Assembly: GCA_027919835.1 (NCBI GenBank)
Contig: JANVFP010000002.1
Span: 372,001-436,000 of the forward strand
Source of the DNA: Lentinula raphanica
Lineage: Eukaryota; Basidiomycota; Agaricomycetes; Agaricales; Omphalotaceae
DNA: 64,000 bases
Reading direction: 5' to 3'
Shown: one piece after another, positions 29,832 to 59,261 of the stretch
Position numbering within the stretch: position 1 is the stretch's first letter
How the letters are laid out: each line of letters begins with the position of its first letter
Position numbers and translations under genes: made by a program
The notes under the pieces: generated by a model
Seen by the model: only the letters and a program-made list of their open reading frames with translations
Told to the model about the DNA's origin: nothing
Database searches by the model: none

Positions 29832-31030
29832 CACTTCAGGCACCCTTAAATCCTACCGACTTAGGGGGGATTACTCGCCAAATACCCGTACCTAATGGGG
29901 GGGATTACCGGTCAATTACCCAATGGGTATTACCCAAACTGGGTAATACCCTGCCTCTGGTGCCAGGGGTCCCTGTCTGGTATTACCCTCCTGGGTAATA
30001 CCACCCCTCCTACAGCTTGCTCACCACCCCTCCTATAGCTTGCACACCAATCTTACAGCTATTATACTATTACAACACAGTGTCCTGGCACCAATAAATT
30101 ATTCGTACTATATACTTAGACTGTCTGTGCAGTAGACTCTGATAGAGATGTAACACAAGACAATACTGCTAGGATATTGTACATAACATGTATATGCAGG
30201 AAACTTGAGCTGGTAACTTATACTACTCACCGGTCTAATATTGATTGGGGATTCATACTGTATACTATACATGGTTAGGTATATTACAACACACATCCTT
30301 TCTGATGTTGCATAAATTATGCTAGTAAGCTAGTAGTAACTTATATTACCAGCATTGTAGTACCAATGATCTTTATTGATTAATGTTACCCCCTACTTGA
30401 CATAGTGATAATACCCTCACCTAGTATGGGTATGGTAGTATCACCCTTGTCTAGTATTACCTTCATTTAGGAATATCCTCAGGCTAATTTTACCTTTACT
30501 TACTAATATTCTCACCTGGTATCATCCTCAGTTGGTATCACCCTTACCTGTATCACCGTTCCATGGTATTGCCTTGATTTGGTTAATACCTTCAGGCTGG
30601 TGTTTTATTTGGGTATTACACTCATTTAGTACCCTATAATGGTATTACCACATGTTGGTATTAAGGGTAAAGATATTACCCTCAGTGAGTATTACCTTCA
30701 GTGGGTAATACTATTACCCTTACTGCTCACTGGGTATTACCCTTAATGGGTATTACCCTTACTGCTCACTGGGTATTACCCTCAATGGGTATTACCCTCA
30801 GTGGGTAATTACTCTTACTGGGTATTACCCTTACTGGGTAATTACTCTTACTGGGTATTACTCTTACTGGGTAATTACTCTTACTGGGTATTACCCTCAC
30901 TGGGTATTACCCTTACTGGGTATTACCCTCAGTGGGTATTACCCTTACCTTACCTCACTGGGTATTACCCTTACCTTACCTCACTGGGTATTACCCTTAC
31001 TGGTAATACCCTCACCAGGTACTCACTGCA
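29832..31030. repeat. Palindrome-rich repeat element, GGGTATTACCC type
   Basis: It starts at 29832 with CACTTCAGGCACCC, exactly where RT similarity ends. It is filled with near-palindromes GGGTATTACCC/GGGTAATACCC and contains GGTGCCAGGGGTCCC at about 29958. From about 30650 to 31020 it becomes a 15-16 bp minisatellite (TTACTGGGTATTACCC and variants). Its right edge is not defined, and gene A ends at 31109. A related element with a different palindrome core lies in intron 5 of gene A. No protein-coding capacity. Confidence 0.65.
30650..31020. repeat. Minisatellite of TTACTGGGTATTACCC units
   Basis: Roughly 20 imperfect units, each containing the palindrome GGGTATTACCC or GGGTAATTACTC, with occasional TTACCTTACC interruptions. 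It lies about 90 bp downstream of the gene A stop codon. The unit is not the fungal telomere repeat. Confidence 0.75.
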
Positions 31031-36011: not shown

Positions 36012-39000
36012 CTATGGACGTATCTCAGGAGCTGCGTGTCCTCGGAATTGGCGCAGTTCCGCTAATAGTCGAGTCGAATTCCTTCTCACTTGCTCACTCT
36101 CACGCACGTATTCGACATCGTCAGGCGAAAGCTCCAACTCTAAATCAGTTACTACCTCCACTTCACCTGTGAATTCGACAACGACGAGTTTGAACCATTT
36201 ATTGGCATTGGTCTTGCTCCCTTTGTAGAAGTGGTGGATGCGGCGGACAAATTTACCAATGTGCTCTTCTAAACCTCCAACAACCACCATTAAATGTTTC
36301 TCTGAGCTAGGCTTCGGACGGTTGCGATGTCGGAGAACCAGCGTAGTGTCCACAAACACATTGCCAACTTTGATTTGAGGTTGATCAATTTGTAGGAGTA
36401 TGGCACCGTTTTCGGCCGGTGTTGGAACGACATATCACTCCCCTGCTTTTGTTTTCAACGTGTCGTAGGGTCCGCCGATTATGTCTACCCGGATGGGTAT
36501 GCCAAAGAGAGCTCGGTTACATAGAAAGTGATTCGGAGAAGCAACGAAGTGCGGTCCTAGTTTCTCAACTTCTGCAAAAAATTGAACAGGTGTCATAATT
36601 TCATGAATAGGATAGCATACCATAACTGGGGATTCCACCATGCTCAAATCCGGGATGCCAAACGCCAACGAACTCATACAACTTCGCCACAGAGTCACGG
36701 TCGATTACCGGCGTGTAAGATCGAGCCGGAAGAGTTTGCGCCTCGAAGACTTTGGTGGGAATGTACAGGGGGTTTGGCATGAAGAAAGATTGCTGCCAAG
36801 TGGGAGGTATAGCACGATGTAGTACGTCGGTTGTGCTACATTTCACTAAGTGATACGTTATCTTACAAGTAAGGGACAACTTACTGTAGTTCACGAACAG
36901 AATCATAATCGAGTCTGACTTGAGGACTAACAATGTTGCCTCTAGCCACATCCAGTTCGACCGTGAGGACAATCCCACTAGCACGAATACCCTTCCGAGG
37001 GTCAAGCTTGTAACGATTCACGTCCCGGACAGTGCCTGTTAGACCATGCTCGTTTCCTTGAACCACTCGAATACGAGCACCGATCCATGGTTCCGGTCCC
37101 GTTTTCATTCGATGGAGTGAACGATTGATTTTGAAATGATCGAAGAATAAAGACCGTCCCTCGGAGTCGAGAGCAAGCTGATCGAGAGGCGTATTAGTCC
37201 TAGTGAATGCTCAGAAACAGTTCGTAGAAATTGCTAAACACTTACCGATGTTCAACAACCTGAGTATAGTCAAGTTCAAAAGAGCAATCATTTGAAGGTA
37301 CATAGACCAGGATACGAGCGGAACCATGACCATCAGGCCAGGCCCTTTTCACAATTCCTTCTGTCTGAGCGTAGAAGTTGAGATCGACTATACGGACTTT
37401 GAGATCCTTCCACGGAGACTCGTTAGTAGTTGGTGTAGGGCGGGAAGAGTCTGCGATTGCCGTAGTCACACTATTCACATCGACCCAAACGCTCTGCAAC
37501 AGACACGAAATGAATACATGCGGATAGAAGTGAAAAGTTAAGTAGCCTACCACGGAGTGAGAAGAATCCCGAATCAAACCAAGCACACGACCATCTCTCT
37601 CACCAACTAGGCCCTGCGTATTTGCATGCGGACCCTTCAGCACCTTCACATAATCTCCGGGAATGAACATCTTCACGAGACGCTCATTTTGCACTACAAC
37701 AGTTTCGCCCACAGCAGTATCGACCTCACACGTTCTGGGATATACCTCACGTATGACACCTTTCGTGACTCCTCCGTGTAGGACTGGTTCTTCCCCGGCG
37801 AAGGATACATAGTCACCTACATCGAAGTGCCAGAGTTCAGGCATCAGCATGCTACTAAGACGTTCTGCCACATAAGGATGTTTGCTCTGAGTGAAGATTC
37901 TGCGATTGTCCCAGGAAATTTCAGCGGCAACAGACAACATTGTTGGGGAGAAGTAGGCTGCTAGAAGTCCGAATTCGAAGCATTGCTTGTCGTATATGAA
38001 ATACGAGTGTCCATCGATCTCTCGCATCTCCAGTTCATCTTCGTCTAACTGGTCTTCGGTCAACAGACTCATTTCTGGACGTGAAGGGTTTGGATGATCG
38101 CACTCGCGAATGATGCGTGGAACGAGGAGAACAGCAATATTCAATTGGCCTGGAATATGACAAAGGCCTCGCACCAGTCCTGTATCACCACTGTAGAGTC
38201 CAGGCTGGTTGATTTTGACCCAAGTGCCCGGGGAGAATATACGATCGTTATGAGGTAAAATCCTAAGACAGGATTTGTGCTCGGTTGCAGGAACGCAGAA
38301 CAGCGATGCGGCGTAGATGTCTGAATGGACCCTCAAAAATTCAAGGAGGACGGAAGGGTGATCGTTCGGAATTGAAGCTTCAAAGTATACATGACTGCCC
38401 AAAGATGGATTGTAGAAAGCACTTCGTACTTCGCGTTGAAGCACGGACGATTCCATTATATTGAAGAGAATCTGGTATTCTGAGCCCGACTGTATCGATA
38501 TCATCAGTAAAACCGCTGTCAAATCATCGAGGTGTACTCGTACCTTGCAATCGGCACGAAATAGCACCCAGTCATCACGAAGATGAGTACTCTCACGAAG
38601 CAGCGTCTCTACCCAGTCTTGTTCTCGATGATTCGCATGGGTGATTTCTGCAGTCAACTCTTCGGTCATCTCGATATCAGAATCTTCAGTTGAGTTTCGG
38701 TGACCATGAACGTAGGTGTCCTCTAGATGGTGGATGAGGCAAGCCATAGAATTTTCGGGATCTCGCGTATAAGCAGGAGAAGTCGTGGGTTGCGCAACTG
38801 AAGCCCCGCCTTGGATAGAGTTGTCTATGAAATCGTCTATACAACATATACATTGAATACAGTATTCACGATGTCAATTGTACGAACCTTCGCATATTGC
38901 ACTATTGTCATCGTCGTCGTCATTGTCAGCGTCATCTTCCAAGGCCTCGACATCCAAGAACTGTCCAACGCGCCTTCGCTTCCGACGCTGGCTTGCGGAA

Positions 39001-39081: not shown

Positions 39082-42000
39082 CACAGGATACAGTAAAGCT
39101 TTTGTAAAAAACACTGATAAGTTATTGGGTACCTATTGCAAATAGTTGTGATAACCCGGAGGGGGTCCCGGAAATGGCCCCGGAGGGTGGTCATGCCTGT
39201 CACCACCTGTCACATATGGCTTATATTTACTGTTTTGGGTAATTAATAATCATCCAGATATTAAATAAGCAGTACATTTTCAAAAAAACCCGAAAATTCA
39301 TAAAAAATCCTAAAAATCCTAAAAAAGCCAGATTAGGTCAGATCAGGGTATGTAAGCAAATGACCTCATATGATCAAAAATGATGTAGGGCCAATGTAGG
39401 TACTAAAAATAGCCTGAAAAATCACTAAAAAGGCAAAAAAATATTTAGGGATGGTATAGAGCCTATTGCAGGTCCAGGCACATCAAAATTACTAAAAAAA
39501 GGAAAAAATCAATCATGATCTCATCTTGTAGCAAAAAATCTGAAAAAAATCCTAAAAATAGTCAAAAAATTCAGGGGTGCCTTGTTGGCCCTGAAAATGC
39601 AAAATAAAAAAAATACGCGACAAGTGTAAAAATTTTTATCACTCCAAATCATTCCAAATCCACTATACAGTCAGTATATATGATGTATATGCTATATTTA
39701 GCATCCTAGTACCTTTATTGGGCTAAAAATAGAACTTGATCTCATCTGATAGCAAAAAATCTGAAAAAATCATGAAAAATACTCAAAAAATTCAGGGGTG
39801 CCTCATTGGCCCTGAAAATGCAAAATAAAAAAATTTACACAACACAATTGAAAAACAACATCACTCCAAATCATACCAAATCTACTACACAGTCAGTATA
39901 TATCATGTATATGCCATTTATAGCAACCCTAGTACCCTCAATCACTTATATCACTCAAGAATCATACCAAACTGAATAATTTGGGGAGTAGATATATTGT
40001 ACATGATATTTTTAGCACACCTAGTACCCTTGATAACTTAGAACAATTTATATTACTCAATATGTTCAGTAGACTTAGCACTTATCACACCTAACACACT
40101 AAAACTCATAACAGTACTTATATGTATTATACTTAACACAGTTGACAATGAAAATACTTAAAACAGTGTTATCAGTCACTATACTTAACATACTTAACAG
40201 TCAAAAAGTCGGAACAATTGTTATACTATAACACACTTATAACAACGAGTTTTGGGCGCTTATGGGCGCTTATTTGGTGTTTTTGAGTCGAAATTCATTA
40301 ATAGCACACTCAATAATTTTTGTGTGGGCTCTATACTGTGTCAGGATATTGTATATATCATATTCCTCTAGATACAATTCAGAGAACTTGAAAATTCAAC
40401 CTGTGGGGCTGGCTATATTGTGATCTTTTGAAATATAACAGTGTTTTATATAAATGTCAATGCATATGTCCATGTAATGCAAGTATACTGATGGTGGTTC
40501 ATGAAGAATCACTCCTACAGTCTACTAGAAGTGTCTGGACATGGTTCAGATACTCACTATGACTGTTGGACTCTGTGATATACATGTACATGTTTCATGT
40601 GCACTATAGATGTCTACACTTACATGTAACAATAGATGTCATATGCAATGACCCCCATTACAGATCTCTTGGCTGTATCACATAGAATTAGCATAGAATA
40701 GGTTGTAGAATGACTCTTCTCATGACCCAGTAGCAGTTTGACTTCATAACATGGGTGTATGCATTGACATTTACATAAAACACTGTTATCTCACAAAAGC
40801 TCACAATATAGCCAGTTCCAAAAGCTGTAATCTTGAGTTCTCCGGATTGTATCAAGTGTAGTATGATATAAACAACATCTTTACACAATATAGAGCCCAC
40901 ACAAAAATTATTGAGTGTGCTATTAATGAATTTCGACTCAAAAACACCAAATAAGCGCCCATAAGCGCCCAAAACTCATTGTTATGAGTGTGTTATAGTA
41001 TAACAATCAGTGTGTTATGTATATCAAGTAACATTGTTCCGACTTTTTGACTGTTAAGTGTGTTAAGTATAGTGACTGATAACACTGTTTTGAGTATTTT
41101 CATTGTCAACTGTGTTAAGTATAATACATATAAGTACTGTTATGAGTTTTAGTGTGTTAGGTGTGATAAGTGCTAAGTCTACTGAACATATTGAGTAATA
41201 TAAATTGTTCTAAGTTATCAAGGGTACTAGGTGTGCTAAAAATATCATGTACAATATATCTACTCCCCAAATTATTCAGTTTGGTATGATTCTTGAGTGA
41301 TATAAGTGATTGAGGGTACTAGGGATGCTATAAATGGCATATACATGATATATACTGACTGTGTAGTGGATTTGGTATGATTTGGAGTGATGTTGTTTTT
41401 CAATTGTGTCGTGTAAATTTTTCTATTTTGCATTTTCAGGGCCAATGAGGCACCCCTGAATTTTTTGAGTATTTTTCATGATTTTTTCAGATTTTTTGCT
41501 ATCAGATGAGATCAAGTTCTATTTTTAGCCCAATAAAGGTACTAGGATGCTAAATATAGCATATACATCATATATACTGACTGTATAGTGGATTTGGAAT
41601 GATTTGGAGTGATAAAAATTTTTACACTTGTTGTGTATTTTTTTTTATTTTGCATTTTCAGGGCCAACAAGGCACCCCTGAATTTTTTGACTATTTTTAG
41701 GATTTTTTTCAGATTTTTTGCTACAAGATGAGATCATGATTGATTTTTTCCTTTTTTAGTAATTTTGATGTGCCTGGACCTGCAATAGGCTCTATACCAT
41801 CCCTAAATATTTTTTTGCCTTTTTAGTAATTTTTTGGGCTATTTTTAGTACCTACATTGGCCCTACATCATTTTTGATCATATGAGGTCATTTGCTTACA
41901 TACCCTGATATGACCTAATCAGGCCATTTTAGGTTTTTTATAGATTTTTATGAATTTTCGAGTTTTTTTGAAAATGTACTGCTTATTTAATATCTGGATG

Positions 42001-42169
42001 ATTATTAATTACCCAAAACAGTAAATATAAGCCATATGTGACAGGTGGTGACAGGCATGACCACCCCCCGGGGCCATTTCCGGGACCCCCTCCGGGTTAT
42101 CACAACTATTTGCAATAGGTACCCGATAACTTATCGGTACTTTTTACAAAAGTTTTACAGTATCAGCTG
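39082..42169 (+). mobile_element. Foldback element 1 (3.1-kb palindrome)
   Basis: Inverted arms of about 1.41 kb (39082-40488 and 40721-42169) around a ~230-bp loop. End A is CACAGGATACAGTAAAGC and end B (read inwards) is CAGCTGATACTGTAAAAC; both continue TTTTGTAAAAA and reach GGGTACC and a CCGGAGGGGGTCCCGG segment. The arms are AT-rich with repeated TCAGGGGTGCC and TCACTCCAAATCAT blocks. There is no protein gene. The left flank is the 5' end of gene B and the right flank the cut 3' end of gene D. The two flanks share no target duplication. Confidence 0.88.
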
Positions 42170-43645
42170 TGGCGTTACGCTTTGCCCTCTCGAGAACATC
42201 TTTGTCGTCTTCCGAACGTGGTGGTTCAGGAGAGCTGGCATAGCTGACGAGTTGAACAGCCTGCTCTGGGGAAGGTGGGCGTTCAGGAGAACGTTCGCGT
42301 GCCGGAGAAGGTGGTCCATGTTCCGGAGAATGTTCGCGTGCCGGAGAACGTTCGCGTGCCGGAGAACGTTCGCGTGCCGGAGAAGGTGGTCCATGTTCCG
42401 GAGAACGTTCGCGTGCTGGAGAAGGTGATGCATGATCAGGGGAAGACAGGTGTTGCTTTGGCTCTTCAGAAGCCTCTGACATATCCTCCATGAGGACATC
42501 TCCAACAGGCTGGACAGTGGATGGGACAGTGGATGGGACAGTGGCTGGGACAGTGGCTGGAAGTCGAATTTTGGACAATTCTTTGGGAGGGTCACTGAAA
42601 CGAGCGGGGTACCAATAGGAGGTTTCGGGTATCATATTCATTGCCAGCTCCCTTAGCAGGTACATGTGGTATGAATAAACGCCCCAGAAGCCTCGAGGAT
42701 CGATTTGTTGGACATACTGAACGATCTGATGGGTGGTCGCAGTATCTGTGTCTAAGGGAAGGCTATTGTTGTATGCATCATCTGCAGGAACAACTGCCAA
42801 GGCAATCAAATGGAACCTGAAGCGATCCAAAATCGTTTGAACTGTTGTCCCATGAGTCTCGCGGGCTTTCACGACATACTTTTCCCGAAGCTCAGCCAAG
42901 ACGTGATAATCCTGCTCAATTATCGCCAACGTAAGACCATCATCTTCTTCCCAGTCGTCTGGGGACGAGACGGGTTCTGCAGGTAATTTCTCCTCTTCTT
43001 CTTCAAGCGCACCAGCAGGAGGCGGCGGAGAGGGAGGTGGCGGAGAGGGAGAGCCTGTAGCACCAACTACCGGTGTGGCTGATGGTGGTGAGGTATTCGT
43101 AGGAGCGATTGAAGGGGTGTCTGCAGTAGTAGTCGTCACAATGGGGGCCGTATCCTGTGTACATTCAGTGCATGAAATGGACATGGCTGATAATAACAAC
43201 AGACCTTTTTTGCCGGAGGAGCTTTCTTGACTTTCTTCTTACTCTTCCGTGGCGGACCAACGCAGTCGTTGGTGGGGATAGAATCGTTATTGTTCGAAAG
43301 CCCAGGTACCCGACTAGCTGAATCTTCCATGGACGACGCATCCTAGAGTTGGAAAATTCAGACAAGAAACCAGTCAATTGGAAGTGTTGTCAGGGAACTT
43401 ACCTGATCCTGGTCCTGTCGGACCTTCTTGTTGGGGGGAGCTTCCTGTTCGCTATCAGTTCCGGTGCGTGGTTTGTTGCCAGCCTACTAGAAATTGAGAA
43501 AAAGAGGTCGTAATGTTGAGAGAAAGCGTACCTTAGTTCGAGTTTTCCGCTTCTGAGCCGCAGCTTCTACAGACGAAAGAGTTACCTGGACGGCGTCAGG
43601 ATTAGAGCGGGTCGTTCGTTTCATTTGTGCGCGAGTTCTGCGCAT
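42170..43645 (-). pseudogene. Gene D: Pro/Ser/Arg-rich protein, 3' end cut
   Basis: Exons (minus): 43645-43532, 43483-43403, 43342-43205, 43154-42170, all with GT..AG introns of 47-60 nt and consistent phases. The product starts MRRTRAQMKRTTRS and is basic. It then has a Pro-rich stretch (SPSPPPPSPPPPAG), an acidic linker, a possibly folded middle (LTLAIIEQDYHVLAELREKY to YLLRELAMNMIPETSYWYP), TVPATVPSTVP repeats, and a repeat of SPARERSPEHGPP type. The frame runs into foldback element 1, so the true C-terminus is missing. No domain recognised. Divergent from gene C across a ~1-kb intergenic region. Confidence 0.65.
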
Positions 43646-44691
43646 GGTGGTTAGACGACGTGTTTTAGAACTCAGATTACCGGCGTATGCCTTTTTTCCC
43701 TCGAATTTTGAAAACCTACCAAGTGTGTATTCCCACAATTGTATCGCTTATGTTCTCTTATATCTTCTCAGTATCCGTGAAATGTGTACGATTAGACAGA
43801 ACTACCAGTGTTTTTCTCAAGTTAGCCTACTACGCAGATATGACTATAGATACCATTGTTGTTGAACCTCACGGTATACAAAATATACAACGACGATACG
43901 CACCATAGACCGTTAGACGTACAATGAAGTTACTGCCTACCTCCAGAGAGTGACGCGAAGACGAACTGGCCGCACGGTCGTTCGATATAAGTACTGGGAT
44001 GTAGCCATATATCAGTCTTCTTCACCTCACAACATATGCAGCAACGAAACGTACGGATGAGGTCGGGAGCACCGATGTAGAGGTGAGAGCGATGAGTATA
44101 CTGTGGATTGTGAACGTTGATGAAGGTCCAGGTGTTGTAGATGATGAGGATGCCTCAGCGACAGAAGGACATAGTGGGAGTTCGAGAAAAAGAGAAAAAT
44201 TTGGTCACGTGGTAACGTGGTACCATATGACCTGCCGAAACTTCGGATTTCCGAGTTGAGCGGATTGAAACTCTTTTGGCTCAAATCCGTTCAACTTGGA
44301 AATCCGAAGTTTCGGCAGGTCATATGGTACCAGTCATCAGGAAAAGTACCCTTGGCCTAGGTAACCCAGAGATACCCCCCAAAACCTAGGCTCTCCCAAA
44401 GCACCCAAAGAAATCTGAGGCAAACTCAGGCTTGCCCAGGCTTTTCCAGGCAAACTCAGGCTTGCTCAGGCTTTTTCAGGCAAATTCAAAGTTTTTAAAG
44501 TGCTGAGGTTTTGGGGGGTATCTCTAGGCAGCCTAGGCACCAGGTCAGTTTTGCTGATTGGCACGTTACCACGTGATCAAATTTTTCTCTTTTTCTCGAA
44601 CTCCCACCATCGTATCTTCGAGTTATAGCCCTGGTAAGTCTGGTTCAGTACAGAGTAGAGTAGTTAGAATAGTGAATAAGAGAGCTATCGA
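43646..44691. promoter_or_regulatory. Divergent intergenic region of genes D and C
   Basis: 1.05 kb separating the starts of two divergently oriented genes, so it should hold both promoters. No clear TATA boxes are seen. A 434-bp hairpin-rich inverted-repeat element occupies 44174-44607. Confidence 0.45.
44174..44607. mobile_element. Inverted-repeat element with three nested hairpins
   Basis: The outer inverted repeats are about 46 bp (GTGGGAGTTCGAGAAAAAG... and its complement ending CTCCCAC at 44607). Inside lie an independent 113-bp hairpin (44219-44331, arms starting GGTACCATATGACCTGCC) and a third stem pairing 44355-44388 with 44506-44537. Between the last arms, AGGCAAACTCAGGCTTG repeats twice. 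It looks like a MITE, but no clear target duplication is seen. Confidence 0.7.
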
Positions 44692-47016
44692 ATGAAGATG
44701 AACGTCCTAAGGACGCGTAAGGCCGTGTAAGATGACAGAAAACAAGCGAAAGAAGAGTTAACTGAACCTTGTGCGAGTATCTAGTACTTATCGACTGACG
44801 ATCGGTTTTGCAGGAGCGTAACGTGAATCAATTCATACTTCTAGAGGCGGAGGAGAACAACGATGAAGAATTTGAGAGCAACGATGAACCCGGTGTCTTC
44901 AGAGAAGATGAAACGACCAATGATACGCCACTGCAACCACATCTTGGTCATTCCACTTACCAGGAGCGTTTAGACGCAATCGTTTCACGCTACGAATCAT
45001 CTCTCTCTTCTCTGCATTCTTCTGTCTCTCCTCCCTCTGGAAACGATCTGTCATCCTCTTCCTCGGAACCATCCGTCTCACACTCAGCTTCCTCTAATAC
45101 CAATCCCTCCTCGTCAGACCACCTTCCTCCCGCTGATCAGTCCATGATGGATTCGATCACCGCTCTAGACTACGATAATATCTTAGACTTGCCCGGTGTC
45201 AATGATTACAAAGTCCCGGTAGACCCGTTACTGCTAGGGCTCATGGAGGAGCTTATGCACAAGGCTTCAGAATATAGTCTTCTCGACATCTACGCGGTCA
45301 AGTGCCAGCACGGTTCAGAGAATGACATTGTCACCCGCATTCACGATGACATAGCTTGTGAACGCGTGAGCCCTGACGTGTTGTGGAATGTGTTTCACTC
45401 CCAGTTCCCGGGTTGCATTTACTTGCATGTTCATAACATGAACAGGTTCAACATGTATCTCGCAGCATATCTGCGACGAGTTCCAGGCTTTGTCTACCCC
45501 AATAGGCCGTGAATCTCACATCCATCCTCTCACAAACAAGAGCGTGTTGTTATTCAACCCGACTGCACTTCAATTACTGCGTTCTTGTCTGAGATCCCTC
45601 CCCTTTGGGACTCTGCGCATTTGTCTTTGCCTATCCACACCCTTATTCCTTGGCACGACACTCCTTTAGCCCTAAATCACAATCACCTGCTGCTGCGCTA
45701 TCAGGCTCGACCAGACATAGTTGAAGCTGGAAGCTGGGTGCGCGTTAGTGCAAAGAACCGGCTATATAGTGGTGATGTTGGCCTCATCTATAAGATTGAG
45801 TATCCCGATGATGAAACCAATCCCAACCGTCTTTTCTGTTGGGTATTATTGGTCCCTCAGCTCCTCATTCCGCGCAAAGTTGGAGAGAAGAACAAGCGGC
45901 AGTCAAGGCCTCCCCCCACTCTTTTCTCCCTAAGCTTAGCTGATCAATTAGTCCACAATCATGACGTCGAACCTTACTACAGGTGGTGTCTGCATGAAGA
46001 GTGTACCTCACCACTGACTTGCACTCATGGAATTCTCTCTCACCGATGTACGTTCCTCAAGCAAGTTTTCATTGGCTCTCTGGCGGCTGTGAAGATTCCT
46101 TGGGCCTCATTAACACTTTCCGACGTGCTGCCAGCAAATCTAGATTCCCTTTTCCGACAAAGCGGCCACCCAGTTATCTCGTATCCCTTTGTACGTTTGC
46201 GTATGCCACCTTCCTCCGATTGGGTGTTCTTCACCGGTGAATCTGTCCATCTCATCAATACTCATATTGGCCAACCCGATTCTCGAATACTCTTCGATTA
46301 TGGACTTTCACCGGAATCGCTAGCCATCATACAATCTGTTGAAGCTCTTCACTGTGAGCTTATCACCTCCCGCATACACGATGGTCAAGTCGTATCAGAA
46401 ACCTTCCGTGTTCCCAAAATCTACATACGCAAACTATTTCAAGTGGGAGATATAGTAGAGATCATCGCTCACAGGAAAGTCATTCGACAAGCTAAGTCTT
46501 GGGAACGCTTGCCTGTGTATGGGCTTGTGGGGTCCGTAACAGAATTAGATAGCAAGACTGGTGTAGCTCGAGTGATCCTTGGTCGATTTGATGCAGTGAG
46601 TATTCGACCTTCATTGTGATGTATCTCACCTACATATTTTGATTGCAGGATATCGATATTCATGTGAACTCCCTGCGACGGTGGAATTCGGGTTCTTCAT
46701 CTGCTTGGAATTCTACGCCACCATCGTCCTCTGCCCCGCTCACCGAGATGCACCGTTCATCGCTCTCATTTGGTGAGGCCACTAGCAGTCCCATAAATAC
46801 CAACACAGGCCCGAAGACCAGTCATCTTCACCCATGGATCAACGTTGAAATTTTGGTGACCGGGGCTCATCACAGTAAAGGCTATCATGGTCGGGTCAAG
46901 GATATTAAGGAGGACAGGTCGATGAAGAGTGGGCTTGCAGTCTACATCCAATACGCTACTATTAATGCAGCAGTGCCTGCAGAATGGGTGGACTATGACC
47001 TGATACGTAGACTCGA
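44692..47016 (+). pseudogene. Gene C: Spt5-like NGN/KOW protein, TGA and 3' truncation
   Basis: Exons 44692-44724 (11 codons, donor GTGTAAG), 44814-46595 and 46649-47016. The start exon is predicted from phase and splice consensus. The protein begins RNVNQFILLEAEENNDEE, an Spt5-like acidic N-terminus. A NusG-N-terminal (NGN) domain follows (YAVKCQHGSENDIV to FPGCIYLHVHN to VPGFV), then KOW-like motifs GSWVRVSAKNRLYSGDVGLI, GDIVEIIAHRK and WINVEILVTGAHHSKGYHG. An in-frame TGA at 45510-45512 splits the frame right after the NGN domain. After 47016 a donor GTGAGTGTG is present, but foldback element 2 begins at 47054, so the last exons (present in gene B) are lost. Confidence 0.78.
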
Positions 47017-47053
47017 GTGAGTGTGTTTCATTCGAATACTCGACGTATCTGAT

Positions 47054-50000
47054 CAGCTGATACTGTAAAACTTTTGTAAAAAGTACCGATAAGTTATCGG
47101 GTACCTATTGCAAATAGTTGTGATAACCCGGAGGGGGTCCCGGAAATGGCCCCGGGGGGTGGTCATGCCTGTCACCACCTGTCACATATGGCTTATATTT
47201 ACTGTTTTGGGTAATTAATAATCATCCAGATATTAAATAAGCAGTACATTTTCAAAAAAACTCGAAAATTCATAAAAATCTATAAAAAACCTAAAATGGC
47301 CTGATTAGGTCATATCAGGGTATGTAAGCAAATGACCTCATATGATCAAAAATGATGTAGGGCCAATGTAGGTACTAAAAATAGCCCAAAAAATTACTAA
47401 AAAGGCAAAAAAATATTTAGGGATGGTATAGAGCCTATTGCAGGTCCAGGCACATCAAAATTACTAAAAAAGGAAAAAATCAATCATGATCTCATCTTGT
47501 AGCAAAAAATCTGAAAAAAATCCTAAAAATAGTCAAAAAATTCAGGGGTGCCTTGTTGGCCCTGAAAATGCAAAATAAAAAAAATACGCGACAAGTGTAA
47601 AAATTTTTATCACTCCAAATCATTCCAAATCCACTATACAGTCAGTATATATGATGTATATGCTATATTTAGCATCCTAGTACCTTTATTGGGCTAAAAA
47701 TAGAACTTGATCTCATCTGATAGCAAAAAATCTGAAAAAATCATGAAAAATACTCAAAAAATTCAGGGGTGCCTCATTGGCCCTGAAAATGCAAAATAAA
47801 AAAATTTACACAACACAATTGAAAAACAACATCACTCCAAATCATACCAAATCTACTACACAGTCAGTATATATCATGTATATGCCATTTATAGCAACCC
47901 TAGTACCCTCAATCACTTATATCACTCAAGAATCATACCAAACTGAATAATTTGGGGAGTAGATATATTGTACATGATATTTTTAGCACACCTAGTACCC
48001 TTGATAACTTAGAACAATTTATATTACTCAATATGTTCAGTAGACTTAGCACTTATCACACCTAACACACTAAAACTCATAACAGTACTTATATGTATTA
48101 TACTTAACACAGTTGACAATGAAAATACTCAAAACAGTGTTATCAGTCACTATACTTAACACACTTAACAGTCAAAAAGTCGGAACAATGTTACTTGATA
48201 TACATAACACACTGATTGTTATACTATAACACACTCATAACAATGAGTTTTGGGCGCTTATGGGCGCTTATTTGGTGTTTTTGAGTCGAAATTCATTAAT
48301 AGCACACTCAATAATTTTTGTGTGGGCTCTATATTGTGTAAAGATGTTGTTTATATCATACTACACTTGATACAATCCGGAGAACTCAAGATTACAGCTT
48401 TTGGAACTGGCTATATTGTGAGCTTTTGTGAGATAACAGTGTTTTATGTAAATGTCAATGCATACACCCATGTTATGAAGTCAAACTGCTACTGGGTCAT
48501 GAGAAGAGTCATTCTACAACCTATTCTATGCTAATTCTATGTGATACAGCCAAGAGATCTGTAATGGGGTCATTGCATATGACATCTATTGTTACATGTA
48601 AGTGTAGACATCTATAGTGCACATGAAACATGTACATGTATATCACAGAGTCCAACAGTCATAGTGAGTATCTGAACCATGTCCAGACACTTCTAGTAGA
48701 CTGTAGGAGTGATTCTTCATGAACCACCATCAGTATACTTGCATTACATGGACATATGCATTGACATTTATATAAAACACTGTTATATTTCAAAAGATCA
48801 CAATATAGCCAGCCCCACAGGTTGAATTTTCAAGTTCTCTGAATTGTATCTAGAGGAATATGATATATACAATATCCTGACACAGTATAGAGCCCACACA
48901 AAAATTATTGAGTGTGCTATTAATGAATTTCGACTCAAAAACACCAAATAAGCGCCCATAAGCGCCCAAAACTCATTGTTATGAGTGTGTTATAGTATAA
49001 CAATCAGTGTGTTATGTATATCAAGTAACATTGTTCCGACTTTTTGACTGTTAAGTGTGTTAAGTATAGTGACTGATAACACTGTTTTGAGTATTTTCAT
49101 TGTCAACTGTGTTAAGTATAATACATATAAGTACTGTTATGAGTTTTAGTGTGTTAGGTGTGATAAGTGCTAAGTCTACTGAACATATTGAGTAATATAA
49201 ATTGTTCTAAGTTATCAAGGGTACTAGGTGTGCTAAAAATATCATGTACAATATATCTACTCCCCAAATTATTCAGTTTGGTATGATTCTTGAGTGATAT
49301 AAGTGATTGAGGGTACTAGGGTTGCTATAAATGGCATATACATGATATATACTGACTGTGTAGTAGATTTGGTATGATTTGGAGTGATGTTGTTTTTCAA
49401 TTGTGTTGTGTAAATTTTTTTATTTTGCATTTTCAGGGCCAATGAGGCACCCCTGAATTTTTTGAGTATTTTTCATGATTTTTTCAGATTTTTTGCTATC
49501 AGATGAGATCAAGTTCTATTTTTAGCCCAATAAAGGTACTAGGATGCTAAATATAGCATATACATCATATATACTGACTGTATAGTGGATTTGGAATGAT
49601 TTGGAGTGATAAAAATTTTTACACTTGTCGCGTATTTTTTTTATTTTGCATTTTCAGGGCCAACAAGGCACCCCTGAATTTTTTGACTATTTTTAGGATT
49701 TTTTTCAGATTTTTTGCTACAAGATGAGATCATGATTGATTTTTTCCTTTTTTTAGTAATTTTGATGTGCCTGGACCTGCAATAGGCTCTATACCATCCC
49801 TAAATATTTTTTGCCTTTTTAGTGATTTTTCAGGCTATTTTTAGTACCTACATTGGCCCTACATCATTTTTGATCATATGAGGTCATTTGCTTACATACC
49901 CTGATCTGACCTAATCTGGCTTTTTAGGATTTTTAGGATTTTTTATGAATTTTCGGGTTTTTTTGAAAATGTACTGCTTATTTAATATCTGGATGATTAT

Positions 50001-50164
50001 TAATTACCCAAAACAGTAAATATAAGCCATATGTGACAGGTGGTGACAGGCATGACCACCCTCCGGGGCCATTTCCGGGACCCCCTCCGGGTTATCACAA
50101 CTATTTGCAATAGGTACCCAATAACTTATCAGTGTTTTTTACAAAAGCTTTACTGTATCCTGTG
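47054..50164 (-). mobile_element. Foldback element 2 (inverted orientation)
   Basis: A 3.11-kb palindrome, nearly identical to element 1 but in the opposite orientation: end B (CAGCTGATACTG) is left, end A (complement of CACAGGATACAG) is right at 50164. Both arms are complete, including a ~28-bp block (TTACTTGATATACATAAC...) missing from the A arms of elements 1 and 3. The left flank is the last intron donor region of gene C. The right flank is gene E codons beginning CCAGAAC, the complement of GTTCTGG next to element 3. Confidence 0.88.
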
Positions 50165-51029
50165 CCAGAACATCCGACCGCTTCCTCCTGGGGTAATCCC
50201 GAGAAAGGGTCAAACTCCGGGAAGTGCTGTGAATAGTGAGACTCCATAGGGTGTAATACAACCGCTTGAGTCGTCGTATCATCTTGTTCGTATCCGTCGA
50301 CCTCCATGGATTCGTCAGGTGAATCACGAATAAGCCTGGGGTCATAACTGGGAAGTCGGGGATCGTAGGATTCGTCCGTGATCTGAAGTCGCTGTCCATT
50401 TCGAGGGATGATGTGATCCTTCAACGCGCTCCGCCAGTTCCAGCCCGAATAGATGCCTTGAATTTCGAGCTGATGCGCCTCTATCTGACAAGCCGTTGAC
50501 CAACGAGAAAGATCCTCGAGTAAGTCCCGAGCCATGTAGTAACTGTCGATCACAGTCCTTCTGGGTCCAGGATAAGATAGAGGATTCGTCTTGGTGAAGT
50601 TCTCTACGATTCCTCGGATGGGGGGATGGGGAAGATCCACCTGTGAATTGGAAAAGAGGAAAAGTGCTTCAGACGCTTGACTCGACGAGTCCGCTAATAA
50701 TTACTCACCCTTCGCAAGGATTCTTCGGACACCATAGTCGATTCTGGCCTTCCTTGGTCGGCTCGCTGGATAAGTTCAACCTCCATTACCAACGCTCCCC
50801 AAAGGGCCTCGGCCGTCCGACCATTCAGCACGAATTGAAACTCTCCCGTAACCGGATGAGGGTGAGCTAGCACCAAATCGTTCTCATCCATGGGTCGATA
50901 TGGGACAACTGCCCTCTTGAAGTTGGCTCGAGCAATCATCTCGGCTCCCTCGTTTGCAGAAGGCCGTGTAGACGAATCAACTACAGCGTTCGAAGCTGGG
51001 ACAAGAGCGTTCGAAGCGACGATAGACAT
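50165..51029 (-). CDS. Gene E: extra ORF of a chromovirus, main part
   Basis: Exon 1 is 51029-50709 and exon 2 is 50640-50165, with a 68-bp GTGAGT..CACAG intron. Codons are open until foldback element 2 cuts the frame after EEAVGCSG. The remaining codons and stop are at 58635-58680, beyond element 3 (see findings). A TATA-like TATTTAAG about 80 bp upstream supports the ATG at 51029. The product of about 280 aa is unrecognised: a Ser/Ala-rich N-terminus, then FQFVLNGRTAEALWGALVMEV and PPIRGIVENFTKTNPLSYPG, and an Asp/Glu-rich C-terminal third. It lies about 230 bp downstream of the chromodomain and before the polypurine tract of the same element. It is not gag, protease or RT. A captured host gene is an alternative. 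Confidence 0.6.
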
Positions 51030-51260
51030 AGGAGGAACAAAAAGGGGATACCAGATGGATAGAGGAGGATACTGGAGAATGAGGAGAACTTGAGATGAAG
51101 GAGAGGTTCTTAAATATGCAATGAAATTGTTCTTCACCCTACTATGAGCTTCTTCTTCTAATTAATTAATTTTTTGGAAAGATTTTTTCAGAAAAGGTGG
51201 ATGGAAAACAGATTTCGTGGCCTGAGCTGAGTTCGCCGCGATGAATGGTGACTCTGTCTG

Positions 51261-54200
51261 TTATGCTGTCAAAGTAGTCTGCAACCTGTTGACCTTCCAT
51301 TTGCGTAAGATATCCGGCGCGTTCCTGAGCTCGGCCTCAGTCTTCCAATCGTCCTCCTCAGGTGGATACCCAACAAATCTGACTCGATAGATAGGAATTC
51401 GTCGCTTCTTGCCATTTCGACCCCTCCCATACTTAAAGCTTTCATCTACTATTTTATCAACCTCTACCTCTGGTAGGTCTTCGAAATCCTCTCGGTTCAG
51501 TCGCTTGGATGGTCGTTTACCAAATTCCGCTGGGGACTCCATATATCATTCCAAGTGTTCAACGTTTATGATCGGATGAATTTTGTATGAAGTGGGAAGG
51601 CGAAGGCAATACGCGACAGGGCTTATTCTCTCCATTATTTCAAAAGGTCCTTCGTAACGCATCAAAAACTTCTTTCCTAAATTGCGGGATTCCACCTGGT
51701 CTACCTCACTCTTTGAGGTTCTAATGAGACGAAGTGTATGCGGGTTGATTAATGCCTTATCTCCTACTTTGAATTCCAGAGGTAGGTGTTTCCGATTGTA
51801 ATATTTCTGTTGAAAGATCTGACCTAAATGCAATGCCTCTCTAGCCTGATCTCGCTCGGCTTTGAATCCGTCTACCATTTCTTTGGCTCAATCATCCTGA
51901 TAAATTTCCGGGCTAGAATGATGACTTCCTACTTCCTTGTCATGCACGATACCCCCCCCCAGCATTCTTGTCCGGAATCACACGCGGAATCCCTGGGAGC
52001 GTGTGCCGTAGTCCAGACACTGTTCGTGGATGGTATCCGAATAATAGGTACGCCGGACTGAACCCTGTGGCAGTATGTGGTGTGGTATTATACGCTAAAG
52101 CGATGGGATCTAGCTTCTCTGCCCAGTCATTTCTTGTGGGCCCTATGTATGCTCGAAGAATAATTTCCAGTGTTTGGTTCATAATTTCGGTCTGTCCGTC
52201 AGCCTGCGGATGATAAGAAGTCGTAAGGGCCCTTTTCATATCCATCAACCGGCAGACTTCTCTCCAGAAAGTTTCGCGCCATCTTGCATCTCGGTCAGTG
52301 ATTACTTGTTTGGGTATTCCAAAGCGACTAACTACCTGTTGGAAAAAGAGTTTTGCTGTTTGTTCTTCGCCTATCTGAGTGGTGGTTGGGATGAATATCG
52401 CATATTTGGTGAGTTTATCGACTATAACCAGAATATTGTTAAAGCCTTGTGACGACGGTAGATCCGAAATGAAATCCATAGAGACGACCTCAAACAGCTG
52501 GAGTGGAATTGGCACTGACTGCAAGCTCCCTGATGGTGCATGTCTTTTGGGTTTAGATTTTTGGCATATATCACAACTGTTAACGAACTGTTTGATAGTT
52601 CGTGACATCCTTGGCCAATAATAGGTCGAACTGATCCTATTGTAAGTTTTGAAAAATCCTCCATGCGCTGCCTCCGTAATGGAATTATGAACCTCGTTCA
52701 TTATTTCCGCTTGCAGATTTCTAGGAACGCACAATCTTGAATTTCCCAAAGCGTCTTCGAAGTAGATGAGTCCATCATCGGAGAGATAATATTGCGGGTT
52801 CTCCGGATGGTCTGGGTCTGTCTCCCTTTGCCTGACTCTGATAACCTGCTCAAAGTGAGGGTCATTCTGATATTCCTCAATCCACCTTCTTTTCTCTAAC
52901 ATATCCCATCCAGACAGTATCGAGTACGCCTTGAATGAGCGAACTTTGATGACGCCGGGCTTGACAATTCCCTCACTGTCTTCTTCTATCTGCAATTCCA
53001 ACTCTACCTCATCGTCAAATGCGACACCCTCTTCGGATCGCACGAATGCTGTGGCCACAGTAAGTAACTTTTCTTCGAATTGTTCTCCTAAGTCCTTGAC
53101 CATGTCTACTAACTTCTCGTCTTTGGCAGTTTCTCTCATCGCTAGAGACTCAAAGCTATCCTCCTTGGGCCCGTTTTGCATAGGTACTCGACATCGTAGG
53201 CGTGAAATGGGGTCCACGTTTGAATGGGCGCGCCCTGCACGATGTATGATTCGAAGGTTCGGGTAAGCGGAGAACACCAAACCCCAAGTTAGAAGTCTCC
53301 GATTCACGTTCTGAAATGTCCGGGTCCAGGTAAGTGCGGCATGATCTGTGATAGCAATGATCCTTTCTCCCTCAATGATAGGTTGAAATTTGATGAGAGC
53401 TTCTTTTAATGCTAAAGCTTCACATTCGGTAGGTGAATAGTTTCGTTCTGCCGACTGTAATACGCGTGACCAATAACTTATTACTCGTTCCACGTAGACA
53501 ACTGTTTCCTCAAAGTTAGACTCCCAGCTGCCGTTTGCGGGTATGTCCGAATCCTCCTTCACCAATTCCATAACTAGATTTGGGATAGGTTCTCCGTTTT
53601 GGTAAGCTTTTTGCAGCTTTTCGTAAATCTTCGTACCTCTCAAGTCCGATATCTGAATAGGTTGAACCTGTTGAACTATCCCTGCCAATCCATAGTCGCA
53701 TGCATCAGTGTAGACTCGGTATGGCAAGCCAGGCATTGGATGTCCCCAGACGGGAGCTTGCGTAAGTACTTCCTTGCATAACTCGAAAGCAAGCTGCTCA
53801 GCTTCTCCCCAGTGCCATTTTCGACCCTTCTTCAACAGCGCGAAGAGTGGCGATGCAATCCAAGCATAGTAAGGCACATATCCAGAGAAATACACCATCA
53901 TACCAAGAAAGGTTTGAACCTCTTTTACACTCTTCGGAGTCTCCAGTTCTACTATCGCTCTAATCTTCTCCCTATGCGTAGATAGTCCCAAACGTGAAAC
54001 TTTCTGACCTAACAGTAGAAGAGATTGGTAGGCAAAATGACACTTTGCAGGAGACAAGGTAAGCTTGGAGTCTTGTATTGCTTGTAAAATCTTATCGATG
54101 TGGGATATGTGTTCTTCAAATGACTTCGAATAGATAACGATATCGTCAATATATACCAGGGTGAAAATCCATAGGTACGGCGCTAGGACCTTCTGCATTA

Positions 54201-55548
54201 CACGTTGAAAAACACTTGGACCGTTCTTGTATCCGAAAGGCATTCGTTTGAAATGGTATAGACCACGATGTGTTCTGAACGCTAACTTTTCCATGTCCTT
54301 TTTAGCTACAGGTAGCTGCGTGAATCCAGCGAGCGCATCTAAGGTGCTAAGGTATTGACTACCAGACAATGCATTCAGTATGTATTCCTGTCGTGGCAGA
54401 GGGAACTCATCACTAATGGCCATTTCGTTCAGCTTTCGCAGGTCAATGACGAGTCGCGGCTTTGTTTTCCGCCAAACGATAAATACCGGAGCTGCCCACG
54501 GACTTCTAGACGGTTCAATGACATCTAATTTCAACCAGGCATCGATTTGTTTGTCAACGACTTTGCGATTGGCTGGTGATAATGGAATCGGTGGTAGAGC
54601 AATTGGCTTAGCGTTTGCTAACATTGGTATCTCCACTTCTTCCTCGTAGTTTCCGAGTCGACCGTCTAACCCAAATGCTTCCTTGTGCCGTACCAGGACT
54701 TGTTGAACGATTCGAGCCTGTTCACGCTCGGGCAATTCCTTGCAAATATCGACCTCTTCCAAGAGTCGCTCACTACTTGTATTATCCTGCACTACTTCTG
54801 CAGTTTTAGGTCCTCCCTCCAATGGTGGTTCAGCATACTCCTCTCCGGGTATCTCGATATCACTTCGGGGATTCCTTTCTAGCTTCGACTGACTTCTGAT
54901 GGCTGACGATACGGTTTGCTGTCTGTCTTCAATCGCTGCTATACTTTTCAATAGACGAACCTGAGCCTGGAACCTTCGTTGATCCTCCGGTGAGAACTCC
55001 TCGGGCTTATCCAGCCACCGACTAGCCTTGTGTCCCGTTCCCATTAGCTGTCCTCTACCTATCGTTATAGCTTCGTTTGAAAAGTTTGCTACTGGTATTC
55101 GAGGATTCTGCTTCGAAATCAAAGTATCCGGCGAACCGTAGATGTCTTCGTCATTTCGATTGGTGGTAAGTAATTTCTCGATGTATAGCTCCTCGCAACC
55201 TGAAGGGAAGTTTGCGCTGACCGACACCCACTTGGTTGTTCCAGGTGAGATCACTACTTGTTCAGTAGCCCGAACGGATACATCGGAAGCTCGGATTCGT
55301 GCCAATCTTCGAGCCTTCTGATTCTTTCGATGCTGAGCCAATTTTGCCATCCTTCCCGAGAATCCCTTGCTGACTCGAACCTTGAATGTTTTACCATTGT
55401 CGTCGGTATATGGTGCAGTTACTGAATTCTGAACCTCAAGTCGTCGACCGGTACTACCGAACTCCAGGTGAGTTTTGCCCTCCTTTCGTATCGTAGAAAT
55501 TGAGTACTGATCAGCGAAGTCATTACCAAGGATTAATGGAGCACTCAT
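51261..55548 (-). pseudogene. Ty3/gypsy chromovirus Pol (protease tail, RT, RNase H, integrase, chromodomain)
   Basis: It begins inside the retropepsin end (APLILGNDF) at foldback element 3. The RT carries WAAPVFIVWRK, LVIDLRKLNE and YIDD (54142-54153). RNase H shows YTDACDYGLAG, TECEALALKEAL and AITDHAALTW, with a ~70-residue insertion common in fungal chromoviruses. Integrase has the zinc finger (HNSITEAAHGG ... CDICQ) and a DDE core (SMDFISDLP, VITDRDARW, SYHPQADGQTEI). The C-terminus has a chromodomain (EVDKIVDESF, YRVRFVGYPPEEDDW). Lesions are an extra G in a G9 run at 51952-51960, an in-frame TGA near 51892, and another TGA at 51546-51548 just before the chromodomain. Gag and the 5' LTR are absent. 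Confidence 0.9.
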
Positions 55549-58500
55549 CACAGGATACAGTAAAGCTTTTGTAAAAAACACTGATAAGTTATCGGGTACC
55601 TATTGCAAATAGTTGTGATAACCCGGAGGGGGTCCCGGAAATGGCCCCGGAGGGTGGTCATGCCTGTCACCACCTGTCACATATGGCTTATATTTACTGT
55701 TTTGGGTAATTAATAATCATCCAGATATTAAATAAGCAGTACATTTTCAAAAAAACCCGAAAATTCATAAAAAATCCTAAAAATCCTAAAAAAGCCAGAT
55801 TAGGTCAGATCAGGGTATGTAAGCAAATGACCTCATATGATCAAAAATGATGTAGGGCCAATGTAGGTACTAAAAATAGCCTGAAAAATCACTAAAAAGG
55901 CAAAAAAATATTTAGGGATGGTATAGAGCCTATTGCAGGTCCAGGCACATCAAAATTACTAAAAAAAGGAAAAAATCAATCATGATCTCATCTTGTAGCA
56001 AAAAATCTGAAAAAAAATCCTAAAAATAGTCAAAAAATTCAGGGGTGCCTTGTTGGCCCTGAAAATGCAAAATAAAAAAAATACGCGACAAGTGTAAAAA
56101 TTTTTATCACTCCAAATCATTCCAAATCCACTATACAGTCAGTATATATGATGTATATGCTATATTTAGCATCCTAGTACCTTTATTGGGCTAAAAATAG
56201 AACTTGATCTCATCTGATAGCAAAAAATCTGAAAAAATCATGAAAAATACTCAAAAAATTCAGGGGTGCCTCATTGGCCCTGAAAATGCAAAATAAAAAA
56301 ATTTACACAACACAATTGAAAAACAACATCACTCCAAATCATACCAAATCTACTACACAGTCAGTATATCATGTATATGCCATTTATAGCAACCCTAGTA
56401 CCCTCAATCACTTATATCACTCAAGAATCATACCAAACTGAATAATTTGGGGAGTAGATATATTGTACATGATATTTTTAGCACACCTAGTACCCTTGAT
56501 AACTTAGAACAATTTATATAATATGTTCAGTAGACTTAGCACTTATCACACCTAACACACTAAAACTCATAACAGTACTTATATGTATTATACTTAACAC
56601 AGTTGACAATGAAAATACTTAAAACAGTGTTATCAGTCACTATACTTAACATACTTAACAGTCAAAAAGTCGGAACAATTGTTATACTATAACACACTTA
56701 TAACAACGAGTTTTGGGCGCTTATGGGCGCTTATTTGGTGTTTTTGAGTCGAAATTCATTAATAGCACACTCAATAATTTTTGTGTGGGCTCTATACTGT
56801 GTCAGGATATTGTATATATCATATTCCTCTAGATACAATTCAGAGAACTTGAAAATTCAACCTGTGGGGCTGGCTATATTGTGATCTTTTGAAATATAAC
56901 AGTGTTTTATATAAATGTCAATGCATATGTCCATGTAATGCAAGTATACTGATGGTGGTTCATGAAGAATCACTCCTACAGTCTACTAGAAGTGTCTGGA
57001 CATGGTTCAGATACTCACTATGACTGTTGGACTCTGTGATATACATGTACATGTTTCATGTGCACTATAGATGTCTACACTTACATGTAACAATAGATGT
57101 CATATGCAATGACCCCCATTACAGATCTCTTGGCTGTATCACATAGAATTAGCATAGAATAGGTTGTAGAATGACTCTTCTCATGACCCAGTAGCAGTTT
57201 GACTTCATAACATGGGTGTATGCATTGACATTTACATAAAACACTGTTATCTCACAAAAGCTCACAATATAGCCAGTTCCAAAAGCTGTAATCTTGAGTT
57301 CTCCGGATTGTATCAAGTGTAGTATGATATAAACAACATCTTTACACAATATAGAGCCCACACAAAAATTATTGAGTGTGCTATTAATGAATTTCGACTC
57401 AAAAACACCAAATAAGCGCCCATAAGCGCCCAAAACTCATTGTTATGAGTGTGTTATAGTATAACAATCAGTGTGTTATGTATATCAAGTAACATTGTTC
57501 CGACTTTTTGACTGTTAAGTGTGTTAAGTATAGTGACTGATAACACTGTTTTGAGTATTTTCATTGTCAACTGTGTTAAGTATAATACATATAAGTACTG
57601 TTATGAGTTTTAGTGTGTTAGGTGTGATAAGTGCTAAGTCTACTGAACATATTGAGTAATATAAATTGTTCTAAGTTATCAAGGGTACTAGGTGTGCTAA
57701 AAATATCATGTACAATATATCTACTCCCCAAATTATTCAGTTTGGTATGATTCTTGAGTGATATAAGTGATTGAGGGTACTAGGGTTGCTATAAATGGCA
57801 TATACATGATATATACTGACTGTGTAGTAGATTTGGTATGATTTGGAGTGATGTTGTTTTTCAATTGTGTTGTGTAAATTTTTTATTTTGCATTTTCAGG
57901 GCCAATGAGGCACCCCTGAATTTTTTGAGTATTTTTCATGATTTTTTCAGATTTTTTGCTATCAGATGAGATCAAGTTCTATTTTTAGCCCAATAAAGGT
58001 ACTAGGATGCTAAATATAGCATATACATCATATATACTGACTGTATAGTGGATTTGGAATGATTTGGAGTGATAAAAATTTTTACACTTGTCGCGTATTT
58101 TTTTTATTTTGCATTTTCAGGGCCAACAAGGCACCCCTGAATTTTTGACTATTTTTAGGATTTTTTTCAGATTTTTTGCTACAAGATGAGATCATGATTG
58201 ATTTTTTCCTTTTTTAGTAATTTTGATGTGCCTGGACCTGCAATAGGCTCTATACCATCCCTAAATATTTTTTTGCCTTTTTAGTAATTTTTTGGGCTAT
58301 TTTTAGTACCTACATTGGCCCTACATCATTTTTGATCATATGAGGTCATTTGCTTACATACCCTGATATGACCTAATCAGGCCATTTTAGGTTTTTTATA
58401 GATTTTTATGAATTTTCGAGTTTTTTTGAAAATGTACTGCTTATTTAATATCTGGATGATTATTAATTACCCAAAACAGTAAATATAAGTCATATGTGAC

Positions 58501-58627
58501 AGGTGGTGACAGGCATGACCACCCCCCGGGGCCATTTCCGGGACCCCCTCCGGGTTATCGCAACTATTTGCAATAGGTACCCGATAACTTATCGGTACTT
58601 TTTACAAAAGTTTTACAGTATCAGCTG
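55549..58627 (+). mobile_element. Foldback element 3
   Basis: A 3.08-kb palindrome in the same orientation as element 1 and sharing its ~28-bp deletion in the A arm, so 1 and 3 are the closest pair. End A is at 55549 (CACAGGATACAG) against chromovirus protease codons. End B finishes CAGCTG at 58627, followed by GTTCTGG (58628-58634), which matches the complement of the right flank of element 2. Confidence 0.88.
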
Positions 58628-58680
58628 GTTCTGGACGTGGATCTTGTCTCTTGGATCTCGAGCGCTCTTTCGAAAACTAG
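58628..58680 (+). pseudogene. Displaced 3' end of gene E
   Basis: After the 7-bp duplication GTTCTGG, the next codons (RGSCLLDLERSFEN, stop TAG 58678-58680) continue the frame of gene E exactly if the two duplication copies are overlapped. The stop lies 28 bp before a polypurine tract and LTR. The link is inferred from the duplication and frame. Confidence 0.65.
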
Positions 58681-58699
58681 AAGGATAAGTTCAGTTTCG

Positions 58700-58708
58700 G
58701 GGGGGGTA
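58700..58708 (+). other. Polypurine tract
   Basis: A G8 run followed by TA, directly before the LTR start TGTTATGG. This is the plus-strand primer position expected upstream of a 3' LTR, and it shows the LTR to its right is a 3' LTR in plus orientation. Confidence 0.7.
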
Positions 58709-59261
58709 TGTTATGGGACGATAGTCCAAACTCACCTTACCTTCTAATCACTTTTCTCAAGAACCTCTTACTTCGATATTCATCGTCAATGCACGAATTC
58801 TCGTACGATTCAACCAATCATATCACTTTTTCCTTATGACTTTCATGACCTTTCATTACTTACGATTCATTTACGATTCAGATACGACTCACCTACGATT
58901 TAGTGCTCCAGTAGAATACTAAGGAAGTGAGGAGAATATAGTAGAAGCTTCTGGAACATGTAAGCTTGATTAGCTATAAGTACTATGCTCGGAGTACGGA
59001 ATATCATCTTTGATTCTACTCTTACCCATATCTCGGTGCCGACGCACTCGTCTGAACACTTCGCTATCGACTCGCTCTAGCAACCGCCGACCATTTGATT
59101 CGCTCTGGTCCTTAATAGAAAGCATCCGACTTGCTCTGCTTTCAGGTAAGTTTTGGTAAGATCCATTCGCGACGTATCTCTTTGATTACTTCTACGAAAT
59201 CTACTAACGGTACTGACGATTTCTGCCTAGCTATTATAGGTTTTTTTGACGAACTCTAACA
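58709..59261 (+). mobile_element. 3' LTR of the chromovirus
   Basis: 553 bp, starting TGTTATGGGACG and ending GAACTCTAACA, with 5-bp inverted ends TGTTA/TAACA. TATA-like TATAAG at 58975-58980. Preceded by a polypurine tract and followed immediately by an old Ngaro A repeat (TTCACCATCAAG), which is the insertion target. The 5' LTR is not in the window, so the duplication cannot be checked. Confidence 0.78.

Follow-up and report, generated by a model that had tools for sequence, protein, structure and literature searches.

Foldback elements and the interrupted retrotransposon

We analysed a 64-kb stretch of the Lentinula raphanica genome (assembly GCA_027919835.1, contig JANVFP010000002.1, positions 372,001 to 436,000; hereafter the window), which carries three copies of a foldback transposon, e1, e2 and e3, together with a long terminal repeat (LTR) retrotransposon whose pol-bearing segment, S, lies between e2 and e3 in apparently inverted orientation. 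The genome searched was the 49-Mb assembly of 75 contigs, in which the window is on contig C2. The features that bear on the rearrangement are, in window coordinates:

39082-42169, plus strand: foldback element e1, 3,088 bp, A end to B end, without a duplication of its own; sister copy of e2 and e3
42170-47053, plus strand: part of a multicopy gene family, interrupted by e1 and e2, with an Spt5-NGN match below the Pfam cut-off; uninterrupted on C14
47047-47053, plus strand: ATCTGAT, left flank of e2, unpaired
47054-50164, minus strand: foldback element e2, 3,111 bp, B end left and A end right, delimited by blastn and end sequences
50165-50171, plus strand: CCAGAAC, right of e2, one copy of the split 7-bp duplication
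50165-55548, minus strand: segment S, 5,384 bp, pol and downstream part of the LTR retrotransposon
51943-55548, minus strand: pol reading frame, interrupted by e3 at 55548
55542-55548, plus strand: CACTCAT (complement ATGAGTG), left flank of e3, unpaired
55549-58627, plus strand: foldback element e3, 3,079 bp, A end left and B end right
58628-58634, plus strand: GTTCTGG, right of e3, the other copy of the split duplication and exact complement of CCAGAAC
58635-58708, plus strand: end of 'gene E', TAG stop and G-rich tract, the retrotransposon 3' end outside the inversion, contiguous with S in three of three uninterrupted copies
58709-59261, plus strand: 3' LTR of the split retrotransposon, with TG..CA ends by eye

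The two arms within one element are 93.1% alike in e2 and 90.5% alike in e3 (range over e1 to e3, 90.5-93.1%), and the A ends begin CACAGGATACAG and the B ends CAGCTGATACTG, which makes the two ends distinguishable. Exact 22-base end matches across the genome number 121 for A and 146 for B, with none for the reversed control, and the family probably comprises roughly 130 copies. Over their whole length e1 and e3 are 99.4% identical, e1 and e2 98.7%, and e2 and e3 98.5%; their arms are 99.5-99.9% alike, as against at most 98.9% with four other A arms and at most 96.1% with five other B arms. Such similarity among sister copies is as expected from local hops and implies that nearby substrates existed. 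A 27-bp block in the A arm of e2 does not occur in the A arms of e1 or e3, and all three elements carry it unchanged in their B arms; from this distribution we read the block as a probable conversion. A 5.5-kb copy on C50 contains four reading frames of at least 80 amino acids that form two mirrored pairs, a further palindrome, and a Pfam search with a 351-amino-acid frame beside a half element on C21 gave no match. An 11.8-kb stretch at C2:650977-662777, with an A end, a B end and TGAGCAT as a perfect 7-bp duplication, may be an autonomous copy or a nested insertion. At L008:1169 and L036:201, close to foldback copies, there are related ends (CACAGGATACTGTG) that suggest a second, related family.

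A duplication split between two elements

None of the three elements has a 7-bp duplication of its own. The initial annotation had proposed that e2 and e3 lie in opposite orientation, that their right flanks are complementary while neither is bordered by a matching pair, and that joining the two 7-bp copies carries the gene E frame to a stop codon followed by a polypurine tract and an LTR. All of this is borne out: CCAGAAC and GTTCTGG correspond exactly on direct comparison, boundaries and end sequences place e2 on the minus and e3 on the plus strand, an in-frame TAG is visible by eye in three of three uninterrupted copies, and in the window a G-rich tract precedes the LTR. An exact match anywhere among the 15 pairings of the six ends of e1 to e3 has a chance probability of ~0.0009.

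Outside the window the 50165 side has three matches among the best 40 of 530 candidates (L009 on C16, L010 on C25 and L011 on C19), all of which run into the 58628 side, giving three paralogs within this same assembly in which gene E crosses the join uninterrupted. Each has a single 7-bp copy there, GTGCTGG in C16 and GTTCTGG in C25 and C19; the C16 copy is 92-94% identical to the window and the other two are 72-82% identical. Relative to these three copies segment 50165-55548 is, on sequence comparison, inverted, and the reading of the 7-bp sequence as one insertion-site duplication split between e2 and e3 is likewise supported by them. Pfam matches in S to reverse transcriptase, RNase H and an integrase zinc finger (above the cut-off) and to the integrase core (below it) all fall on the minus strand, indicating that S is inverted relative to its own 3' end. 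From the order of these domains we take the host retrotransposon to be of Ty3 type.

The two LTRs of the uninterrupted C25 copy (L010, L040) are 100% identical over 538 bases, indicative of a recent insertion. Separately, retrotransposon matches on C16 and C48 (L026, L025, L024) all break within window positions 55210-55219, their halves sharing 10 bp, which suggests another insertion or rearrangement there.

Unmatched left flanks and missing DNA

The left flank of e2 (ATCTGAT) differs from ATGAGTG, the complement of the left flank of e3. A single crossover between intact palindromes would exchange both duplications, so the left pair should match as well. Thus the earlier proposal that the 5.4-kb segment was inverted by recombination between the two palindromes stands as regards the inversion, which is evident against the paralogs, but a single crossover between intact e2 and e3 is ruled out by the left flanks.

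Uninterrupted versions of both insertion sites are present elsewhere. Four copies reaching the e3 site (L036, L037, L039 and L040, from six non-self matches) continue upstream. Five copies extend to the e2 site, of which four were read base by base (L034, L041, L042 and L043; the fifth is C25:455841). The partner half expected on the gag-pol side of e3 was not found in this assembly, all four matches being uninterrupted copies, nor was the gene-side partner of e2, for which the six matches are a near-identical uninterrupted copy on C14 and five paralogs at 73-78% identity. We also considered C16:452151 as the missing partner of e2, which adjoins the foldback element C16:449034-452149, and rejected it because it corresponds to another position in the gene and has a different 7-bp flank. 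As the partner halves were not found, the DNA was apparently lost, or lies outside this assembly, in addition to the segment being inverted.

Genome-wide flank survey

We surveyed 117 element-end flanks and 52 complete elements, the latter including the three in the window; two of the underlying searches each scored the best 40 of about 530 candidates. The 52 are elements with both ends read and no more than 12 kb between them, and 12 sampled stretches without any element end were dropped. A perfect 7-bp duplication flanks 34 of the 52, indicating that 7 bp is the right length for the split duplication, and the 34 duplications have no clear consensus of preferred target bases. The other 18 are unmatched (counting C7:1128579, whose duplication has one mismatch), a proportion that probably overstates the genome rate as later batches were mostly aimed at clustered elements. 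The first batch, taken before clusters were targeted, is the fairer figure: 13 of 15 were perfect, compared with 0/3 in the window (Fisher p 0.012), and the second end was lacking in 5 of 20 attempts.

The survey left 49 ends without a partner of their own (36 from unmatched complete elements and 13 single ends), among which there are exactly two exactly complementary pairs, where 0.07 would be expected by chance. Both are right/right exchanges between neighbouring inverted elements with left/left flanks unmatched, the exchanged ends being 8.5 kb apart on C2 and 14.3 kb apart on C24. The second pair involves the inverted elements C24:672213-675254 and C24:686467-689507, which have exchanged right flanks (GTTCGGC). 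The join of these flanks is spanned by at least 10 outside matches at five sites (C24, C11, C14, C6 and C36; best 40 of 165 candidates scored) with 78-90% identity, the best among the matches listed being 90% over 215 bases. Since uninterrupted repeats span the join, the C24 target too was probably once continuous.

Five of the 52 elements are like-ended, four A..A and one B..B (C3:124180, C16:449034, C20:158476, C20:172201 and C28:583154). None of them has a duplication, as opposed to 34 of 47 normal elements (Fisher p 0.003), and they are likely recombination products. Neighbouring pairs numbered 19, of which 13 were inverted, and no pair showed a double exchange. Some neighbours have equal or nearly equal lengths (2966/2966 at C9:1436469/1447130, 3063/3062 at C7:1278243/1281968 and 3042/3041 on C24), which hints at local transposition; other neighbours differ.

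Origin of the rearrangement

We consider the chances about even that the e2/e3 inversion was made by reversed-ends (alternative) transposition, in which a transposase acts on ends belonging to two different elements. The starting point would be two copies of the family in the same orientation, e2 inserted in a gene-family copy at ATCTGAT and e3 in the retrotransposon pol gene at ATGAGTG. Transposase would cut the facing ends, the A end of e2 and the B end of e3, releasing the DNA between them (the rest of the gene copy through the retrotransposon 5' LTR and gag), which would be lost. The cut ends, still tied to their chromosome arms, would then insert jointly in a staggered 7-bp target, GTTCTGG, at the 3' end of the same retrotransposon. 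S would thereby be inverted, the 7-bp copy next to e2 would be complementary to the one next to e3, and the former left flanks would have lost their partners. The order so predicted, gene copy, ATCTGAT, e2, CCAGAAC, inverted S, CACTCAT, e3, GTTCTGG and LTR, is the order seen. We infer all three of transposase action, the orientation before the event and loss of the DNA as a single piece. One event of this kind would account for both the split duplication and the missing DNA. Accordant observations are an element at each breakpoint in opposite orientation to the other, a duplication of family length common to one A and one B end and, within this assembly, unpaired remaining ends and loss of the inter-element DNA. 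The half-exchanged pattern, found twice, points to the transposase itself. Two variants were rejected. Reversed-ends transposition with both A ends has a geometry that cannot yield the observed right flank of e2, and a hybrid insertion from one site on sister chromatids would resemble recombination and also pair the left flanks (PMC2775673).

A less probable, though still appreciable, possibility is an inversion by non-allelic homologous recombination (NAHR) with a separate deletion. By this route there would have been three insertions, in the gene copy, pol and gene E; a crossover between the first two would delete the DNA between them, and the fused element would cross over with the one in gene E, inverting S. 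The elements are suitable substrates, being 98.5-99.4% identical over 3.1 kb with e2 and e3 inverted, the like-ended elements and their lack of duplications (0/5 versus 34/47, p 0.003) imply recombination between elements, and Galileo inversions in Drosophila arose in this way with their 7-bp duplications exchanged (PMC2775673). However, the route needs two recombinations and three insertions in place of a single reversed-ends event, and intact pairs should give double exchanges, which were seen in 0/19 pairs, both observed exchanges being half exchanges, although the contrast among inverted pairs is small. An assembly artefact, with S flipped by the assembler between near-identical inverted 3.1-kb repeats, is unlikely: the geometry allows such a flip, but the intact duplications of 34 of 52 elements indicate that the assembly usually crosses them correctly, neither the 64-kb window nor the 280,321 letters of loci examined contain any N, as would be expected of a long-read assembly, and an identical flip would be required on C24. 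Seven bases are few, yet a chance match without any inversion is highly improbable and is refuted by the three of three uninterrupted copies that join exactly these two flanks.

Several observations weigh against reversed-ends transposition. Recombination among foldback elements also occurs, as indicated by the like-ended elements and by the tract in the A arm of e2 that is identical to the B arms. Unmatched elements are common (18/52, in a sample directed at clusters), so that the same half signature would result if one partner in a recombination inversion had been unmatched beforehand. Exchange was found in none of seven intact inverted pairs and in two of five with an unmatched member (p ~0.15, suggestive but not decisive; counted by hand, with C7:1128579 taken as intact and e1/e2, both unmatched, left out). 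The elements e2 and e3 are too nearly identical to show the chimerism that would separate the models, there are two cases only, and no transposase for the family was seen in the small amount of element DNA read.

Comparison with known systems

The rearrangement is probably a case of alternative transposition, a mechanism already known. In maize, Ac/Ds elements produce an inversion with one duplication at the transposed ends and loss of the DNA between the elements, an outcome contrasted with that of recombination (PMC8225341), and their reversed-ends transposition also gives duplications and deletions (PMC3744419). The same product, inversion plus deletion, is given for two copies on one chromatid in the legend to Fig. 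S1D of PMC2775673. The window resembles the maize cases in that two nearby class II elements of the same family are involved, each breakpoint carries an element, the transposed ends share a duplication and the DNA between the elements is lost; it differs in that maize has 8-bp duplications and known parents, whereas the foldback family has 7-bp duplications and palindromic arms of ~1.5 kb and the event is inferred from one assembly. Galileo of Drosophila buzzatii is likewise foldback-like with long arms and makes 7-bp duplications, which are exchanged between inverted copies at the two breakpoints; its inversions are credited to ectopic recombination (PMC2775673). In the Galileo inversion 2z3, though, both duplications are exchanged, nothing is lost and the copies are chimeric, as opposed to the single exchanged pair and missing DNA of e2/e3.

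The Galileo consensus GTAGTAC was not seen in the 34 duplications of the foldback family. Kyakuja (KDZ) of Laccaria bicolor shares the 7-bp duplications and CA..TG ends but is reported to be without terminal inverted repeats, whereas the arms of e1 to e3 are 90.5-93.1% complementary; 7-bp duplications are likewise reported for hAT7 of rust fungi (PMC12730594). Lacking the Galileo target consensus and having inverted repeats unlike Kyakuja, the family was filed under neither. No fungal case of reversed-ends transposition was found among the open-licence papers listed (30 of 47 and 15 of 78 entries); one fungal paper mentions aberrant transposition in general terms only in its available part (PMC7367193). 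Two open-licence listings on Lentinula mobile elements, of three papers each, contained no title or abstract on this foldback family.

Other features of the window

The gene adjoining e1 (37242-38870, minus strand) has four protein relatives at E ≤0.001 among the best 7,995 candidates scored, all named Lentinula raphanica. On C14, DNA matching window 31742-32275 (99.6%) lies ~960 bp from DNA matching 42170; between 32275/32276 and 42170 the window lacks these 960 bp and has 6.8 kb plus e1 instead. Positions 1-29900 contain nested direct and inverted repeats, and the frames 28735-29895 and 24825-25403 resemble reverse transcriptase/RNase H of DIRS type.

Implications

We tentatively propose, at somewhat less than even confidence, that the chromosomes of a Lentinula-type mushroom are repeatedly reshaped by a foldback transposon of ~130 copies. 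Sister copies that arose by local hops would undergo reversed-ends transposition, in which flanking DNA is inverted and what lies between the copies is lost. If true, fungi would have a natural equivalent of the alternative transposition known from maize Ac/Ds, with intact copies and scars side by side in one genome. The fixed 7-bp duplication and the ~130 copies would allow a genome-wide test, as the flanks of each element tell whether it results from a clean jump, recombination or a joint jump.

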